Positions 29,877 to 37,378 of a stretch of 53,961 nucleotides of DNA are shown here, piece by piece; position 1 is the first letter of the stretch, and the number at the start of each line of letters is the position of its first letter. The notes beneath the pieces were generated by a model. That model saw only the letters and a program-made list of their open reading frames with translations, had not been told where the DNA came from and searched no databases. Position numbers and translations under genes: made by a program. Source of the DNA: an uncultured SAR86 cluster bacterium (lineage in GTDB: Bacteria > Pseudomonadota > Gammaproteobacteria > Magnimaribacterales > Magnimaribacteraceae). The DNA is taken from assembly GCA_902594545.1 (NCBI GenBank), contig CACJMO010000006.1, positions 1 to 53,961 of the forward strand. The letters are read 5' to 3'.

Positions 29877-30272
29877 TTACTCCTCTTCAGATGGTTTTAA
29901 ATCCAAAGAAACTGAGTTAATGCAATATCTCAAGCCTGTGGGCTGAGGTCCGTCAGGAAACACATGCCCCAAGTGCGCCTGACATTTGCTGCAATGAACC
30001 TCAGTTCTAATCATGCCTGCAGAGTGATCTTCTTGAGTTTCTACGTTCTTTTCTTCTGAAGGTTCCCAAAAGCTTGGCCATCCAGAACCTGAATCATATT
30101 TGGATTCAGAGCTAAAGAGTTCAACATCACAGACTATACAGTGATATGTGCCAGGTGTTTTGACTCCATCATATTTACCACTGAAAGCAGGTTCGGTACC
30201 ATGATTCTGGGTAACATAATACTCCTCGGGAGTAAGCTTATCTTTCAAATCTTTATTTTCACTCATAGTCAT
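29877..30272 (-). CDS. msrB: Peptide-methionine (R)-S-oxide reductase MsrB
   Basis: Repairs the R form of methionine sulfoxide in proteins. The 131 residues carry zinc cysteines Cys45, Cys48, Cys94 and Cys97, the [11 protein letters not shown] motif, and the catalytic Cys117 in [11 protein letters not shown]. No signal peptide is seen, so it is cytosolic. The ATG overlaps the desaturase stop (ATGA); a second ATG at 30266 is possible. Its end carries the probable ribosome binding site of murJ. Confidence 0.96.
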
Positions 30273-31195
30273 GCGCTCACTGCTTTATTTAGTACACTCC
30301 TATAGGAGTTGCTTATACACATCTTATCTTTGAATCCATTTTTTATCATCATCTTATGCGCTTTAGGAAGGTTATACCAAGGGCACATCATAAAAAGATG
30401 ATGCTCTAAGTGATAGTTTACTCTATGCGGTGCCATCAAAAACCTAACAATAGGATTTGTTAATGTAGTTCTCGTATTGTCCAAATCAGTAGACCCCGAG
30501 GTCACACAGTGCTCAGCGATATTTCTAATTCTGATGATGAGACTGTAATAAGTGAAAGCAGGTAACCACCATAGAAGAAAATATAAGGACCAATGAAAAA
30601 AGAATGAAATGGCCAAAAAAATCAAAATATTTGTAATTAAAAAACCATGAATTTTAAACCAAATACCTTTAAGCCTATCGGGTAAATTTTCTCCATCTGT
30701 CTTTAGTATAGATATCAAAGCTTGTGAATATCTTCTAAAACCAGTTATACCTGTTAAATCTCGTAATACTTTACGAAAAAAACTTATTTTTGTTATTGGG
30801 AACGGAGCGCTTAAAGCCAGATCAGGGTCGTCCTCGGTTTCGGTAAACCTATGATGTTTTAGATGATAGGGTCTATAAACTCTATTGTCTTGGAAGATCG
30901 GATAAGCGCAGAACCACTGAGAAAAAAAGTCATTTACTTTTAAGTTAGAAAATAAAAGATTGTGAGCTCCATCATGAACAAGTACAGCAAGTGCAAACTG
31001 CCTCGAGCCTATTAAAATAACTGCACTAATAAAGGTTAAAGCACTTGGATAGTAGTAAAAAATGCTTAATCCAAAAACAATTAATCCCCAATCCAAGCAT
31101 AAAGCAAAAATATTTCTAAAATCATTCTTTTCTCTAATTTGAGAAAGTTGATGCTTGTCAAGAAGATCTAATGGCTTAGTTTTGGTAGCTTCCAT
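30269..31195 (-). CDS. Membrane-bound fatty acid desaturase
   Basis: A diiron membrane enzyme that probably introduces a double bond into acyl chains. The 308 residues show all three histidine boxes: HDGAH (74-78), HLKHH (111-115) and HLEHH (262-266), plus His229 in RNIAEHC. Hydrophobic segments lie near 32-75 and 183-225. The regiospecificity and whether the substrate is acyl-lipid or acyl-CoA cannot be told from sequence; related hydroxylases share the boxes. It overlaps msrB by four bases, so the two are translationally coupled. Confidence 0.85.
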
Positions 31196-31231: not shown

Positions 31232-32587
31232 TTAATCGGGAAATGGAACAGATTGACTATCGACCATCCTTGCAGGCGAGAATACTGGTTGAGTATTTCT
31301 TGATGACAATTGTTCTAACCAGATTACTCCATCATAAGGCTGGCTATTACCTCTTGTTCCTATGAAGTCCAAATCTGAATCTCCATCTAAATCATAAGGA
31401 ATCCATTTGTCATACATTCCTCTTTTTCTTCTTAGGATATTATTTTTTTTCCATCCACTTGCAGTGTTTTCAAACCAAACTACACTTCCATAGGATCTAT
31501 TGAGACTATCATTATCATCCTTATCTCTGCTACCTAAGCTGTAAGAACCGGAAAAAATATCAATATCCCCATCTGCATCAATATCAGTCGCTGCAATACT
31601 CACCAGTCTATCGGGTTTTATACTGCCTATCTTAAGAAAGTTCCATTTATTCTCAGGACTATCAGGTTGATAAAGAATATATGCAGAGCTAGGCCAAACT
31701 GAACTGACAATATCTAATCTTCCATCATTATTTAAATCAGCATAGTCCATGTTAAATCCAGTTAACCAAGAGCCACTTTCTAAGTCACCTGAAAGATCTA
31801 TGTTGTGTTCCTTGAACTGCAAATTTCCTAAATTCTCTAACCAAAGAATTCTTGCTTCTCCCCTGCTTCCAACGACAATATCCATGTCTCCATCAGAATC
31901 TAGATCAACTGGTTGAGAATTTATTGGTATTCTAACTTGAGTAATTATTTGTTCTTCCCAAGAGTCGCCATCTAATGGATCTTGAGGTAGTTTAAATATA
32001 GATACATTATTCAGGGGCGCATTCTCAATTTCGGGATTTTCTCCACCTTTATTTGCTGCAACAACTTCTACTTTTCCATCTTCATCAAAATCTGCAAAAA
32101 ATACTCTTATAAATGAGCCTCTGTTGAGAGAAATTTTAGGTATGGTTCTTTCCCAGGTCGTTGAACGATGTTTGGACGCAGGATTTCGAAAATAAATTAA
32201 ATGAGCTAATTCGCAAGCAACAATTATGTCTAGCCATCCATCTCCATCGGCATCAGCTATATCTACATCTTCAGCAGAAGCAGCTTCTTTGCCTGAAGCT
32301 AAGGTCGTGAGTTCCCATTTCTTGGGGTCTGACGTTCCCCATGCAATCCGGACATATCCTCGTGGTACTCCATACTTAGTATCGAGTTCATGAACAGAAA
32401 CAATATCTATATAACCATCCTTGTCTAAATCGGCTATTTCTAGACCATCACTTCCTGCTAAATCAGAAGGTCCTAATTTAACATCATCAATGATATGCTC
32501 TCGCCATCCAATGAGATTATCTGCAAAAACAGAACTGATACTAATGCTCAGAAAAAGAGTCAGTATTAATTTTGAATACAATTCCAT
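31232..32587 (-). CDS. Exported FG-GAP/VCBS repeat beta-propeller protein
   Basis: A 451-residue protein with a signal peptide (1-22, ending SVFA-DN). Seven repeats with Asp-rich calcium loops follow: DLDKDGYIDIV, DADGDGWLDII, DFDEDGKVEVV, DLDSDGDMDIV, DLNNDGRLDIV, DIDADGDIDIF and DLDGDSDLDFI, fitting a seven-bladed propeller. It has no catalytic domain and no C-terminal sorting signal that I recognise. Such propellers bind proteins or sugars at the cell surface. It lies downstream of the secreted cysteine-pair cluster but behind a strong terminator, so it probably has its own promoter in 32588-32620. Confidence 0.85.
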   Translation of the reverse strand: MELYSKLILTLFLSISISSVFADNLIGWREHIIDDVKLGPSDLAGSDGLEIADLDKDGYIDIVSVHELDTKYGVPRGYVRIAWGTSDPKKWELTTLASGKEAASAEDVDIADADGDGWLDIIVACELAHLIYFRNPASKHRSTTWERTIPKISLNRGSFIRVFFADFDEDGKVEVVAANKGGENPEIENAPLNNVSIFKLPQDPLDGDSWEEQIITQVRIPINSQPVDLDSDGDMDIVVGSRGEARILWLENLGNLQFKEHNIDLSGDLESGSWLTGFNMDYADLNNDGRLDIVSSVWPSSAYILYQPDSPENKWNFLKIGSIKPDRLVSIAATDIDADGDIDIFSGSYSLGSRDKDDNDSLNRSYGSVVWFENTASGWKKNNILRRKRGMYDKWIPYDLDGDSDLDFIGTRGNSQPYDGVIWLEQLSSRNTQPVFSPARMVDSQSVPFPD

Positions 32588-32616
32588 GTCTTCAATCCTA
32601 ACAAAGAATAAATAAT

Positions 32617-32650
32617 AAAAAAAACGGCCAATCTAGTGGCCGTTTTTTTA
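32617..32650. terminator. Strong hairpin terminator after the secreted-protein cluster
   Basis: AAAACGGCCA (32621-32630), loop ATCTAG, TGGCCGTTTT (32637-32646), flanked by A- and T-runs. It lies 15 bases beyond the stop of the last cluster gene on the minus strand and can act in both directions. Confidence 0.92.
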
Positions 32651-32664
32651 GTCTATTGAGTTTA

Positions 32665-33411
32665 TTAATTGTTAATAGCTTTAATATTATTAACTGAGTA
32701 AACCCTGGGTGGCAGACAATCAGCGATAGTTTCCGGGTAAGTGCCATCAACTAAGCTTTTTAATCTTGCATCCCTATAATTTCCATATTCTGTCATAGAG
32801 CTAAAGCCCATATTTACATAAAAATCATTGGTTTCTTCTAGAGAAGATCCTCCTGCGGCCCACCATCTCCAAACTCCACCTTTATGATCAAGATTGTCTA
32901 GAAACTTATTCCAAACATTATCATTTTCTCTTATATCAGACGCACCTTTGCCCTGTTTAAAAGAACAGCTGTGCATTGCCCAGATGTTATTGTCACCCTC
33001 TTGATATTCAGTTTGATTAGCACGCACTTCAAAGATGTCCCACTGACTCCAAGACGCACAATCAACTAGACTCTGCCACTTCGCAAAAGTCTTAGTTCCA
33101 TTAACTGAGAACCAATCTAATACTTGGCCCATGGCATTATTATTAGTAGTAAAGCCTACCCAATATAAATCATAGCCTTCATTGTCATCATAAAGTTGAG
33201 GAGTTACTACATTACCTTCATAAGGAGCAGGATATGAATCAGCTAATTCGTACCAATCATTTCTTACAAATTCCAGTACCTTATTGAGATCTCTACCTTT
33301 ATTAAAATTACACTGCAGTACTTCTCCAGTATATGTAACGTAAGCATCCTCATTAGAAAAAACCTGAAAAGAAGATCCTATGAGCGCAATCAATATTAAT
33401 GTTTTTTTCAT
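32665..33411 (-). CDS. Exported two-domain cysteine-pair protein (paralog 1)
   Basis: I do not recognise this family. It has 248 residues with a signal peptide (1-19). Two halves look like a duplication: Cys34 to Cys118 (84 apart) and Cys149 to Cys232 (83 apart). Each half begins with a strand ending in C and N/S-F-x-x-G, then a helix, and contains a W/Y-x-V-G-F-like strand. The second half has GGVWRWW, FSSMTEYGNYRD and the end PPRVYSVNNI shared with its paralogs. The alternating strand-helix pattern suggests two ferredoxin-like (dimeric alpha/beta barrel) domains, an inference. AGGAGAG precedes the ATG. It is the last gene of the five-gene cluster, before a strong terminator. Confidence 0.75.
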   Translation of the reverse strand: MKKTLILIALIGSSFQVFSNEDAYVTYTGEVLQCNFNKGRDLNKVLEFVRNDWYELADSYPAPYEGNVVTPQLYDDNEGYDLYWVGFTTNNNAMGQVLDWFSVNGTKTFAKWQSLVDCASWSQWDIFEVRANQTEYQEGDNNIWAMHSCSFKQGKGASDIRENDNVWNKFLDNLDHKGGVWRWWAAGGSSLEETNDFYVNMGFSSMTEYGNYRDARLKSLVDGTYPETIADCLPPRVYSVNNIKAINN

Positions 33412-33425
33412 CTTTTCTCTCCTAA

Positions 33426-34178
33426 TTATTCTGCAAGATTCAACCTGATATTTGTAGACTCATAAAGTCTAGGAGTATTACATTCATGAACTTCTTCAGG
33501 TCGCGAACCATCCATCATGGCCTTAAGCCTATTGTCTCTGGAGGCTCCATATTCTTCTACAGATGAAAAACTCACAGCTACCAGATAGTCATAATCTGTT
33601 TCAGTAGGCGATCCAGTTTCTGGCCACCATCTCCAATAACCACCTTCAAATCCAGAATCATCTAGGTATTTATTCCAAATTTTGTCATTTGCTTGAAGGT
33701 CATCTACGCTTTTTCCATCCTTAAACGAGCATGATTGAATCATGGTATAACCGGTTGCGCCTTCAACCCATTCAGTTTTAGGAGTCCTTCCCTCTACATT
33801 TAGGTTTAATGACATACCAGAGCAATTGGTTACTCTTTCCCATTTTGCACCTATTCTGTCGCCACCTTTTCTAAATTCATCTTCGGCCTTACCGACACTT
33901 GCAAGAGTTTCAGCAAAACCTAAAAAAACAAAATCAAGATCGAAATCAACTGTAGACATGTAAACAGGTGTCATGATCCATGCACTGAAAGGCTCAGAAA
34001 AATTGTCATCTCCATACTCGTCCCATTCAGCTAGAACTTTCATGACATCATCCATGTCCGCACCATCAGCAATTTGACATTGCATAGCAGCCATACCGCC
34101 AATCTCCACATGATCATCGGCATGAGTAATGCTCAAAAAGGATGCAAAGATAAACATTATTAAGAATTTTATTTTCAT
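33426..34178 (-). CDS. Exported two-domain cysteine-pair protein (paralog 2)
   Basis: Function unknown. The 250 residues start with a signal peptide ending SITHA-DDH (cleavage after residue 20). Cysteines are Cys34, Cys119, Cys150 and Cys233, with spacings 85 and 83. Shared blocks are QSCSFKDGKSVDDLQANDKIWNKYLDD, in two parts, then GGYWRWWPETGSP, FSSVEEYGASRDNRLK, and CNTPRLYESTNIR. It is the closest relative of paralog 1 in the cluster by eye. It lies 14 bases before paralog 1 and 18 bases after paralog 3, with AAAGGA upstream, so all are probably on one transcript. Confidence 0.75.
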   Translation of the reverse strand: MKIKFLIMFIFASFLSITHADDHVEIGGMAAMQCQIADGADMDDVMKVLAEWDEYGDDNFSEPFSAWIMTPVYMSTVDFDLDFVFLGFAETLASVGKAEDEFRKGGDRIGAKWERVTNCSGMSLNLNVEGRTPKTEWVEGATGYTMIQSCSFKDGKSVDDLQANDKIWNKYLDDSGFEGGYWRWWPETGSPTETDYDYLVAVSFSSVEEYGASRDNRLKAMMDGSRPEEVHECNTPRLYESTNIRLNLAE

Positions 34179-34196
34179 TGTTATTCCTTTATTAAT

Positions 34197-34949
34197 TTAA
34201 TTAAAAGGTCTATTTCTGGCATTAAATGCTGAATAGACTCTGGGGTTATCACAACTGATCACACTTTCAGGTTGTTCGGTCACACCCCAAAAAGAATCAT
34301 CTTGTATTGATCCATACTCTTCCCAAGAATTGAAAGAGATATTCATAAAAAAGTCACTATCAGATGAGTTTGAAGTTCCTGCAACAGGTACCCATCTCCA
34401 AACACCACCTGTGTGACCGAGCTTATCCATATACTTATTCCATTCTTTATCACTTGCTAATAGATCTTGTATAGTTTTCCCTTCTTTTAAAGAACAACTT
34501 CTAATAGCCCAGAAAGTATTTTCACCCTCGACGAACTGTACTTTTGGGGTTCTTGCCTCAATGGCCATATAGTATCCTTGAGATGGGCAATCCGTTAAAG
34601 ATTCCCACTTGGCAAATGTTTCTGCTGCATCAGCAGAGAACCATGAATCTTGAACAATTCCCATATCTTTATGATTATTTGTAAAACCAACCCAGGCTAC
34701 ATCAAATGAAGCTTCGTCCCCCGATCTTAAAAAAGGAGTGAGATAGAAACCGCTGTAAGGAACCGGCCAGCTTTTATCCGCATAAGGATTTAAATCATCT
34801 TTCATAAAAGATGTTAAATCATCAAAATTTACACCCTCTTTATAGTTACATTGATAACCTTCCATACCATAAGAAATAACATGATCATCCGCTATAAGAC
34901 TACCCAAAGAAAGTAATGAGCAAACACAAATAATTAAAAACTTTTTCAT
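34197..34949 (-). CDS. Exported two-domain cysteine-pair protein (paralog 3)
   Basis: Function unknown. The ATG at 34949 (250 residues, MKKFLIICVCS) is preferred; the frame also opens with TTG at 34961, inside the preceding gene. The signal peptide ends SLIA-DDH. Conserved cysteines are Cys34, Cys121, Cys152 and Cys233 (spacings 87 and 81). Family blocks: GYQCNYKEG, VAWVGFTNN, TFAKWESLTDC, RSCSLKEGKTIQDLLASD, GGVWRWVP, SWEEYGS and CDNPRVYSAFN. It follows the cysteine-free gene with a five-base gap and precedes paralog 2. Confidence 0.75.
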   Translation of the reverse strand: MKKFLIICVCSLLSLGSLIADDHVISYGMEGYQCNYKEGVNFDDLTSFMKDDLNPYADKSWPVPYSGFYLTPFLRSGDEASFDVAWVGFTNNHKDMGIVQDSWFSADAAETFAKWESLTDCPSQGYYMAIEARTPKVQFVEGENTFWAIRSCSLKEGKTIQDLLASDKEWNKYMDKLGHTGGVWRWVPVAGTSNSSDSDFFMNISFNSWEEYGSIQDDSFWGVTEQPESVISCDNPRVYSAFNARNRPFN

Positions 34950-34953
34950 AATA

Positions 34954-35700
34954 CTATTCAAAATCTTTGGTAACGAATTGTTCTAGATCAGAAGCAGAAT
35001 CGTATATACGGGCATTAAAAAGAAGTTTGCTTCCTTTCCAGTCGACTACCCTATCAGCCATTTTAAAATACTTCTGCAGAGCAGGGTTTGTGGCAACTTG
35101 ATCTTCCCAGCCCTCGAGTTCAGCAATGGAGCTATATCCAACTGTCAATAAATGGGATACATCAGGAGACCCTCCAAACATAACTTGAGAAACTCCAAAT
35201 TGACCGGGAAAAGTATCTTTTGTTTCGTCATCAAGCTTTTGAGTTAACTTAAGAAACTGTTCCATATCAGATGGCTCAGCATAAAACTCATGAATGATCC
35301 AATACACGTCATCATTTGAGGGATTGCCATATGTCTGAATAAAAGTATTAAACCTTTGCGAAATACTTGTGGAGTTATTCCTTAAAACATTGAAAAACTT
35401 TTGACCAGCATCACTCTGTTGAGAAGAAGTAATCCACTCCATGTGCTCAGTAAGACTAGGTTGAAGGACTGCAAAAAAATGAGTGGCTTCGCTTTCACCA
35501 TTAGCTAGATAAGCATTTAAATGCAAAGACCCCTTAAAGTTTTCTTGTGCAAAACTTGATGCCATTAATTCATCTGTGGCTGAAATTATATTTGCAGCTG
35601 CTTGAGGATTTTCGACTTTGATGTCATAGATAGTCCACATAGGATTTGAATAAAGAAATCCCGATATGGCTATAGATAATATTAAAAATAGTTTTTTCAT
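34954..35700 (-). CDS. Exported two-domain protein without cysteines (cluster member 4)
   Basis: Not recognised. The 248 residues have a signal peptide (1-18, ending FLYS-NP) and no cysteine at all. Two halves resemble each other: MWTIYDIKVENPQAAANII against VYWIIHEFYAEPSDMEQFL, and THFFAVLQPSLTEHMEWI against SHLLTVGYSSIAELEGWE. The strand-helix-strand pattern again suggests two ferredoxin-like alpha/beta barrel domains. So it could be a distant relative of its neighbours or a different family of the same fold. It sits between paralogs 3 and 5 in the same operon, 12 bases after the latter. Confidence 0.7.
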   Translation of the reverse strand: MKKLFLILSIAISGFLYSNPMWTIYDIKVENPQAAANIISATDELMASSFAQENFKGSLHLNAYLANGESEATHFFAVLQPSLTEHMEWITSSQQSDAGQKFFNVLRNNSTSISQRFNTFIQTYGNPSNDDVYWIIHEFYAEPSDMEQFLKLTQKLDDETKDTFPGQFGVSQVMFGGSPDVSHLLTVGYSSIAELEGWEDQVATNPALQKYFKMADRVVDWKGSKLLFNARIYDSASDLEQFVTKDFE

Positions 35701-35712
35701 AATTGTTATAAA

Positions 35713-36474
35713 TTAATTGTTTGATCTCACGCCAGTTACGTTATAAACCGCCCTGTTATTGCAGGTCATGAGGTCTCCATAGATAGATTGCATCATCTGA
35801 TTTCCTCCTCCATTTACTGCTTGATCAACGGCCTTACCCCATTCAACATGATTATCTGAATCTTGACTCCATAAAAAGTCAGCATCAAAACGAGAAGGGA
35901 TACCTGACCCAGGGTACCATCTCCCTGCTCCACCTTTCATGTTCATTGAGTCTGCATATTCATTAAATTTCTTATCGGCAGCTAAAACTTGCTCATAAGT
36001 TGTTCCTTCAGTTAAAGAGCACCAAACTATAGAAGAAACACCTTGATTGTCTCCATCTTCAGATTCTAGAACTCTTACACTTTCATAACCCCAATTAGTA
36101 TGATCATTACAAGGTGTTACGCTATTAAATTTAGAATTAATTCTTTGTCCTTTTGGTTCCATCATTAAAGCCTGGGCTTTACCTAGCTCTTCCCAAGTCG
36201 GAGAAGCGCCGATCCAAAAGAAGTCAGCAGTTTCCTCTTCACTGTAAAAATACGTAGAAAAAATCCATGCGCTATACTGAACATCGCTGTCATCTACATA
36301 CTCGTTCCATTCATCAACAACTCTCATTAAGTCGTTCATATCTTTTCCAGGAGCATAATTGCAACCAAATCCTTCAACAGGAATAAAAGTTGGCTGATCA
36401 TCGTCTGCAAGGATTGAGAAAGAAAGCACCAATGAAACAAGAGATGCAAAAATTATCTTGATAAAGTTTGTCAT
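35713..36474 (-). CDS. Exported two-domain cysteine-pair protein (paralog 5, first gene)
   Basis: Function unknown; the most diverged of the four cysteine-pair paralogs. The ATG at 36474 (253 residues) is chosen because GGAGAGG stands just before it and a signal peptide follows at once (ending SILA-DDD); the frame extends upstream to 36510 without support. Conserved cysteines are Cys38, Cys122, Cys152 and Cys238 (spacings 84 and 86). Recognisable blocks are GFGCNYAPGKDMNDLM, FFWIGASPTWEELG, VWCSLTEGTTYEQVLAADKK in part, GGAGRWYPGSG and CNNRAVYNVTGV. It is first in the cluster, and inverted repeats lie in its leader. Confidence 0.75.
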   Translation of the reverse strand: MTNFIKIIFASLVSLVLSFSILADDDQPTFIPVEGFGCNYAPGKDMNDLMRVVDEWNEYVDDSDVQYSAWIFSTYFYSEEETADFFWIGASPTWEELGKAQALMMEPKGQRINSKFNSVTPCNDHTNWGYESVRVLESEDGDNQGVSSIVWCSLTEGTTYEQVLAADKKFNEYADSMNMKGGAGRWYPGSGIPSRFDADFLWSQDSDNHVEWGKAVDQAVNGGGNQMMQSIYGDLMTCNNRAVYNVTGVRSNN

Positions 36475-36616: not shown

Positions 36617-36657
36617 TCACACAATCGAAACTTTGTGACAATTGTGTGACAAAGTTT
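36617..36657. repeat. Two interleaved inverted repeats between acyltransferase and secreted cluster
   Basis: TCACACAAT (36617-36625) pairs with ATTGTGTGA (36641-36649), and AAACTTTGT (36628-36636) pairs with ACAAAGTTT (36649-36657). The pairs are interleaved, so only one hairpin can form at a time. TGTGACAA also occurs as a direct repeat at 36634 and 36645, 11 bases apart. It could be a protein-binding site or a terminator/antiterminator; it partly covers the acyltransferase stop codon. Confidence 0.5.
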
Positions 36658-37378
36658 AATGTTCTTTATTCCTAAATAACTTACTCTTCATATAATTTAA
36701 ACTCGTATTATTTTTAAGAGTGTAACGATCGATTTGATCGTATAAATGTTCCAAACCTTTGGGATCCTCGAAGAGTCTTATACGAGTCATTCCTTCAACA
36801 TTTGGGTCGAGTTCTTTGATGATTTGGGCAGGATTTCCACCTACAACTACATTTGGTGGAACATCTTTTACAACAACTGAGCCAGCAGCAACAATACTAT
36901 TTTTACCTATAGATACTCCTTTACCAACAACCGCCCTATCACCAATCCAGACATTTTCTTCAAGCAGAATAGGTGATGTCTTTCCTACTGGAATGGCTCT
37001 ATCATAAATACCGTGCCAATCTGCATCTGAAATATAAGCACTATTGGCAAACATACATCCATCTCCAATAGTTATTTTTGATGCTGATGCAATACGCACT
37101 CCTGGCGTTAAAAGGCAAAAATTCCCAATAGAAATTTCACCCTCATGATCCTCTAAGCTCCATGTTGTCAAATGAATATAATTATCTGGAGAGGCAACCA
37201 TCGTTGGGTAATCGCCAATCGAGATGTTCCTTCCATAAATATCAAAGTATTTCGCACCCATGATATTGTGGCCCTTTCCAAAATTTTCAAACTGAGGTGC
37301 TAAAAAGTTATCTACATAGAAATTATTGTATCTAGCAAATAGCTTCTTCAGCCAATATGGTCGGTTGTCTTTTCTGAT
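36656..37378 (-). CDS. Left-handed beta-helix (hexapeptide) acyltransferase, non-standard start
   Basis: An O-acetyltransferase-like enzyme of the WcaF/Maa type. Hexapeptide repeats (EISIGNFCLL, KITIGDGCMF, NVWIGDRAVV, GVSIGKNSIV) and the end VVVGGNPAQIIKEL are clear, with a likely catalytic His in ADWHGIYDR. The first ATG is at 37261 (201 residues), but the frame stays open and coding-like upstream: RKDNRPYWLKKLFARYNNFY and NFLAPQFENFGKGHNI, as in longer homologues. No ATG, GTG or TTG exists there. An ATC at 37378 has AGAGG six bases upstream and would give 240 residues. Acceptor unknown. It is divergent from the MATE gene. Confidence 0.75.
   Translation of the reverse strand: MRKDNRPYWLKKLFARYNNFYVDNFLAPQFENFGKGHNIMGAKYFDIYGRNISIGDYPTMVASPDNYIHLTTWSLEDHEGEISIGNFCLLTPGVRIASASKITIGDGCMFANSAYISDADWHGIYDRAIPVGKTSPILLEENVWIGDRAVVGKGVSIGKNSIVAAGSVVVKDVPPNVVVGGNPAQIIKELDPNVEGMTRIRLFEDPKGLEHLYDQIDRYTLKNNTSLNYMKSKLFRNKEH

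Follow-up and report, generated by a model that had tools for sequence, protein, structure and literature searches.

SAR86 bacteria are very common in the ocean, and at one place in their genome they encode related, exported-looking barrel proteins in a steady order. This gene array was analyzed in a window of 53,961 nucleotides from an uncultured SAR86 cluster bacterium (contig CACJMO010000006.1), where a row of five minus-strand genes occupies positions 32665-36474. In the order of transcription, the genes are P4, B, P3, P2 and P1. The proteins P1 to P4 are referred to as A-type and the protein B as B-type. With a probability of about 0.5, the five are exported, fused dimeric alpha-beta barrel (DABB) proteins that handle small, mostly hydrophobic molecules in the periplasm, with a different ligand for each paralog. 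The fold and the kin of the array proteins are what is new here, and the function offered is an informed guess.

The fold was read from a structure model of P2. The AlphaFold2 model, calculated from P2 and 36 relatives (predicted local distance difference test score (pLDDT) of 89.4, predicted template modelling score of 0.81), shows two beta-alpha-beta-beta-alpha-beta units. The best match of this model found by Foldseek in the Protein Data Bank (PDB) is 2pgc, which is also a two-domain protein (E 2.4e-9, template modelling (TM) scores 0.61/0.72, root-mean-square deviation (rmsd) 4.1 A, 12% identity). The matches that follow are mostly chlorite dismutases, coproheme decarboxylases and DyP peroxidases, the chains of which have DABB folds. 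The two halves of the A-type protein are homologous (hhalign E 5.1e-22, probability 99.4), and each A-type chain is an internal duplication of one ferredoxin-like domain. As modelled, each array protein would be a covalently fused DABB, the packing into a barrel being inferred. The crystal structure 2pgc was released in 2007, and no function is assigned to it in the matches. According to PMC2557142, 2PGC is one of five structures from novel ocean-metagenome families.

The sequence-only reading, which was made before any database search, knew of no named family for these proteins. This holds for Pfam and NCBIfam, where none of the five window proteins reaches a cut-off, but the DABB fold and the structure of a relative, 2pgc, have now been found. 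In the open literature library, no listed title or abstract start describes the family, which is weak evidence of absence. The identifier 2pgc occurs in 20 papers there, and among the 15 listed several deal with crystallographic methods.

The B-type protein had been singled out as a cysteine-free two-domain protein. It does lack cysteine and has two domains, but it is not unrelated to its neighbours and is kin of the A-type. Its model, built with 7 relatives (pLDDT 72.8), contains two beta-alpha-beta-beta-alpha-beta units in the same order of elements as in the A-type, and its halves are homologous as well (hhalign E 2.1e-16, probability 98.7). Profile comparison of A with B (probability 95.7, E 1.1e-8 over 202 columns, in an alignment that takes in the signal peptides) places both in one superfamily, with B as a distant member. 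A B profile of 25 sequences matches 2pgc by sequence across both domains at E 8.1e-7. When the profile was reduced to 19 of the 25, with both NIPSNAP-like sequences and four others dropped, 2pgc was still matched at E 2.5e-5, and the next match lay at 0.074. The best-scoring fold matches of the B model are putative monooxygenases and 2pgc. The A profile misses 2pgc, and thus the link from the A-type to this structure by sequence runs through B alone. PDB searches with single sequences and narrow profiles gave no credible match.

The A-type proteins P1, P3 and P4 share 32-37% identity with P2 in the search with P2, and P4 is the furthest from it among the four window copies (31-32% identity). 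The shared sequence blocks noticed earlier proved less general than described. Four cysteines are in register in all four A-type proteins, whereas SC-S-F/L-x-x-G-K and GG-x-W-R-W are kept in three of them (P4 deviates, with WCSLTEGT and GGAGRW) and the exact EEYG in two. Conservation was counted over 77 sequences below 70% identity, drawn from 119, and a cysteine was taken as present if it lay within one column of its expected place. C150 and C233 (P2 numbering) are present in 77/77. The domain-1 pair, C34 and C119, tends to be retained or missing as a unit: both are present in 62 proteins, neither in 13 and a single one in 2 (Fisher p 6e-13, with no correction for kinship). The alignment of the two halves by hhalign pairs C34 with C150 and C119 with C233. 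In the P2 model, strand 1 carries C34 or C150 at its end, depending on the domain, and strand 4 carries C119 or C233 at its start. Strands 1 and 4 of the ferredoxin-like fold are antiparallel neighbours. Because the cysteines sit on these two strands, each A-type domain probably carries one disulfide, which would be C34-C119 and C150-C233 in P2.

Conserved positions were also compared between clades, using 34 rows from the four window clades. At 19 positions every clade has the same residue at 85% or more, with 6 of these in domain 1 (to residue 131) and 13 in domain 2. The latter include D165, N169 and D173, spaced four residues apart along one helix, together with R183, W184 and D215. Since the conserved positions concentrate in domain 2, the better guess may be a shared site in domain 2 and a variable site in domain 1. 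A fifth A-type paralog of the same genome, located outside the array (G000:C15:20539-21270; in the fetched locus, L066:6531-7271), has neither of the domain-1 cysteines but does have the domain-2 pair.

All five proteins begin with a short stretch containing a basic residue, followed by a strongly hydrophobic segment, in agreement with the signal peptides predicted earlier. The Kyte-Doolittle 12-mer maximum of the five is 2.2-2.9 within the first 30 residues, compared with 0.6-1.7 elsewhere. Among full-length A-type proteins, a strongly hydrophobic segment lies within the first 60 residues in 114/119, and such a segment occurs later in the chain in 0/119. It can be inferred that the array proteins are probably exported to the periplasm.

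The array is an old and steady feature of these genomes. In 17 of the 20 own-family loci that were fetched for holding A-type genes, the genes are in the same slot (L063-L065 are elsewhere). Each slot locus has at least one flank gene of the window (MsrB, desaturase, FG-GAP, hexapeptide transferase, MATE or beyond), and both sides are present in 9/17; in L058 and L062, a short fragment represents the hexapeptide flank. Arrays hold between one gene (G023) and six genes (G003), and no reversal was seen in how the four clades are ordered. In a tree of 59 proteins, in which some long branches were flagged as unsure by the program, P1, P2, P3 and P4 fall into four clades, which hold 11, 10, 8 and 8 rows and have supports of 100/100, 100/99, 100/99 and 100/99, respectively. 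The P1 and P4 clades span the genera g1, g4 and g5, and the P2 and P3 clades span g1 and g4. Because each clade has rows from both g1 and g4, the duplications are older than the split of these genera. The median ratio of nonsynonymous to synonymous substitution rates (dN/dS) of the four A paralog groups is 0.15-0.19. These values were obtained by the Nei-Gojobori method and apply to the A paralogs alone; dS is close to saturation, and only pairs with 0<dS<2 entered the medians (21/55, 14/45, 10/28 and 12/28). The A paralogs are under purifying selection. The four cross-genus clades, the absence of order reversal and the low dN/dS bear out the earlier suggestion that diverged copies are kept side by side for a real job.

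In the favoured reading, the exported fused barrels, the A-type domains each stapled by a disulfide, would sit in the periplasm. The clefts between helices and sheet would take up small, mostly hydrophobic molecules, and the proteins would act by binding or by chemistry that does not involve His-bound haem. Each paralog would serve a different ligand, that is, one ligand class per paralog. DABB proteins typically bind small hydrophobic molecules. SAR86, according to PMC11582366, is reported to feed on membrane lipids, steroids and aromatics. It is this habit of the fold, the look of export, the distinct paralogs that have been kept and the SAR86 diet (PMC11582366) that lead us to favour the handling of small hydrophobic molecules. 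Such a role may be extended to a periplasmic kit in which DABB proteins, fused, stapled by disulfides and encoded in a set order, are mixed and matched. The kit would be a new secreted enzyme or binding family with one paralog for each lipid, steroid or aromatic, and its content would track the diet of the species. This extension is doubtful, although it is not far-fetched.

Several results weigh against the fold, the kinship or the function proposed here. A wide A profile (27 sequences) gives no credible match in the PDB, not even 2pgc. The comparison of A with B is weak with narrow alignments (probability 34), and iterated searches merged A and B, which is no independent evidence of kinship. 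The match after 2pgc with the 25-sequence B profile is interferon gamma at 0.0016, surely by chance, so the profile is loose. The B model superposes poorly on its DABB matches (TM about 0.3, rmsd 16-18 A), and flavin oligosaccharide oxidases, which are not DABB enzymes and rank lower among the matches, fit it somewhat better (TM 0.39-0.41); the domain packing of B is thus tentative. In some arrays (G004, G030) B has no copy. There is no obvious catalytic set, as most columns that exceed 60% in the wide A set hold Cys, Gly, Asp, Pro or an aromatic residue. The flanking genes point to no pathway.

The array proteins could instead be cofactor-independent periplasmic oxygenases or isomerases of the antibiotic biosynthesis monooxygenase (ABM) or NIPSNAP kind. 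Both families share the DABB fold. Such a reading narrows the favoured one and does not oppose it. The top fold matches of the B model include the putative monooxygenases 3mcs and 3f44, the anthrone oxidase-like 5f9p and PenE. Furthermore, NIPSNAP-matching proteins directly adjoin a B-type gene in two genomes (L127:7032-7760 in G004 and L128:7003-7773 in G017). These two neighbours are the only ones to pass the NIPSNAP cut-off. Two of the 25 B-profile sequences match NIPSNAP themselves, and the drawing of the NIPSNAP neighbours into the wide B alignment hints at a distant kinship between the B-type and NIPSNAP. Nevertheless, neither the five window proteins nor the 37 members of alignment A3 have an ABM or NIPSNAP match above the curated cut-off, and no catalytic set is conserved. 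Unlike these families, the array proteins look exported and the A-type is probably disulfide-stapled. An activity of this kind is unlikely. DUF6854, which was weakly seen with B relatives, was searched for in the own genome and none was found.

Alternatively, the paralogs might be subunits of one hetero-oligomeric envelope assembly, with the gene order and the pairing of A with B mirroring a defined make-up. DABB proteins often form higher oligomers. P1 stands last in the array at all 11 loci where its clade occurs, including one that shows a lone gene at the end of a contig, and P4-clade genes come first or second. A-B neighbours also recur in other SAR86 families, where 19/42 B rows are less than 4 kb from a listed A row, compared with 0.46 expected under uniform placement. 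This count covers 150 A rows among the matches listed and 62/84 B rows (E <= 1.3e-6) and assumes genomes of 1.2 Mb; the genomes are related, so the 19/42 are not independent, and the A/B label of the small gene is ambiguous in G063 and G096. On the other hand, the make-up varies widely, from the five genes of the window to two A and two B in G001, three A and no B in G030, and one A in G023, and lone genes occur in another genus. Because members are lost freely between arrays, an obligate complex is disfavoured, and a single assembly seems quite improbable.

A role as haem or porphyrin proteins resembling chlorite dismutase, HemQ or DyP peroxidase is very improbable. These proteins account for the majority of the fold matches listed below 2pgc, their two ferredoxin-like units align with the whole A model at a TM of about 0.5, and some of them are exported. 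They bind haem through His. In contrast, the A-type has no conserved His, as the best column reaches 43% among the 77 sequences. A His column in the B-type holds His in 22/32 and Met in 8/32 nonredundant sequences, but no family match accompanies it: no Pfam or NCBIfam profile of chlorite dismutase, HemQ or DyP matches the five proteins, nor does a Pfam profile match the 37 A3 members. In the B consensus (alignments A6 and A8), a short block N/G-G-x4-T-H recurs at corresponding positions of the two halves. The His of the second half is no longer in the majority in A8, and the first His is replaced mainly by Met.

Presence-absence variation inside a fixed slot could also mean that an arms race has diversified the proteins as surface decoys or as targets exposed to phage. 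This explanation is very improbable. It hardly fits the low dN/dS, and just 10 positions are invariant inside each of the four clades yet distinguish them, scattered over strands, helices and loops. Relatives were sought in viral contigs with P2 as the query, and none was found. A local expansion that arose by chance and serves no selected function agrees with the variable copy number and content and with the 7/18 same-genus genomes that have no strong A-type match (many are incomplete), but it is largely refuted by the deep orthology, the steady order and slot and the low dN/dS in small genomes.

It can be expected that proteins retained in this way matter for how SAR86 cells meet dissolved organic matter, since the superfamily is kept in six or more copies by a genome of ~1.3-1.6 Mb, looks exported and is under purifying selection. 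The result recasts unknown proteins as a testable class tied to a 2007 crystal structure. Profiles from a few dozen sequences suffice to annotate this superfamily.

The array was described earlier as an operon with gaps of 18 bases or less and a strong terminator at its end. The open reading frames (ORFs) do form an operon-like row, and the terminator is well supported. The intergenic gaps, in the order of transcription, are 12, 4, 18 and 14 bases. The terminator region (32600-32664) has a folding energy of -17.5 kcal/mol (z -4.7), and 0/200 shuffled sequences were equally stable. The hairpin is near-symmetric and may also act for the plus strand.

Features of the array and its flanks in the window
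Feature	Position	Strand	Description
P4	35713..36474	-	253 aa from ATG at 36474; first array gene; A-type tandem-DABB, predicted exported (ORF and homology)
B	34954..35700	-	248 aa; cysteine-free B-type tandem-DABB, predicted exported (ORF, model, profile comparison)
P3	34197..34949	-	250 aa; A-type (ORF, ortholog clade)
P2	33426..34178	-	250 aa; A-type; protein chosen for the structure model
P1	32665..33411	-	248 aa; A-type; last array gene
Intrinsic terminator after P1	32618..32649	-	13-pair stem, 6-base loop, T run
FG-GAP repeat protein	31232..32587	-	Exported-looking; Pfam FG-GAP_3 8.7e-29
Fatty acid desaturase family protein	30269..31195	-	Slot marker on one side; Pfam 6.6e-38
Hexapeptide acyltransferase	36656..37261	-	Slot marker on the other side; Pfam 5.3e-12

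The FG-GAP gene adjoins the array in 9/17 slot loci, some of which end early, and is probably not part of the array proper. The desaturase-family protein matches the NCBIfam model of the GntB hydroxylase at E 1.8e-40, yet with 139 bits against a cut-off of 380. It is probably a different hydroxylase or desaturase and not GntB.

The own genome (1.34 Mb, 71% complete) has five A-type genes and one B-type gene. In the related genomes, where absence of the cluster would have spoken for a chance event, strong A-type matches (E <= 1e-50) occur in 11/18 of the same genus. The A-type profile at E <= 0.001 finds matches in 85/101 genomes, own included, and in 35/39 of the nearly complete ones; the B profile finds matches in 45/101. 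Further away, the A-type is rare. It is present in 4/369 genomes of a class-wide sample (the own genome, G266 and two further members of the order) and in 2/398 of a phylum-wide one (own and G753). Around G266, it is found in 25/60 genomes, namely 23/37 of its genus together with G512 and G514; each of these genomes has one to four matches. At the 28 loci fetched there (25 of the G266 genus, and one each of G512, G514 and G753), exactly one A-type gene is present in 25 and two in none. To place copies side by side is thus a habit of SAR86. In this count, no A gene showed at L155, L165 and L167, where, as elsewhere, ORF picking kept only the longest of overlapping ORFs; the gene at L167 was read separately. 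In the second genus, the surroundings of the A-type genes are of at least two unrelated kinds.

In other SAR86 families, the neighbours of some A and B copies are mutually unlike (a cyclase, a PDZ protein, a hydrolase, a flavin adenine dinucleotide-binding protein and malate synthase) and indicate no pathway. In one such family, two A-type genes on one strand flank four B-type genes on the other (L119:4153-8714), and the same type of cluster occurs with three B-type genes (L123:5791-9596 and L129:6963-10766). Divergent A-type proteins with N-termini that resemble lipoprotein signals by eye are encoded at L099:3966, L102:4774, L104:3837, L106:4280, L105:3668 and L109:3362; those in L102, L104 and L106 adjoin a B-type gene. 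Single-domain A-type proteins of 134-148 aa with two Cys are also present in SAR86 (L079:4996-5400, L082:5265-5669, L113:4160-4600 and L115:4300-4746), and in L079 and L082 they adjoin a two-domain A-type gene. A single-domain, exported-looking relative in G753, which belongs to another class (L167:6864-7235, 123 aa, two Cys, match 3.0e-6), is a possible unfused form.

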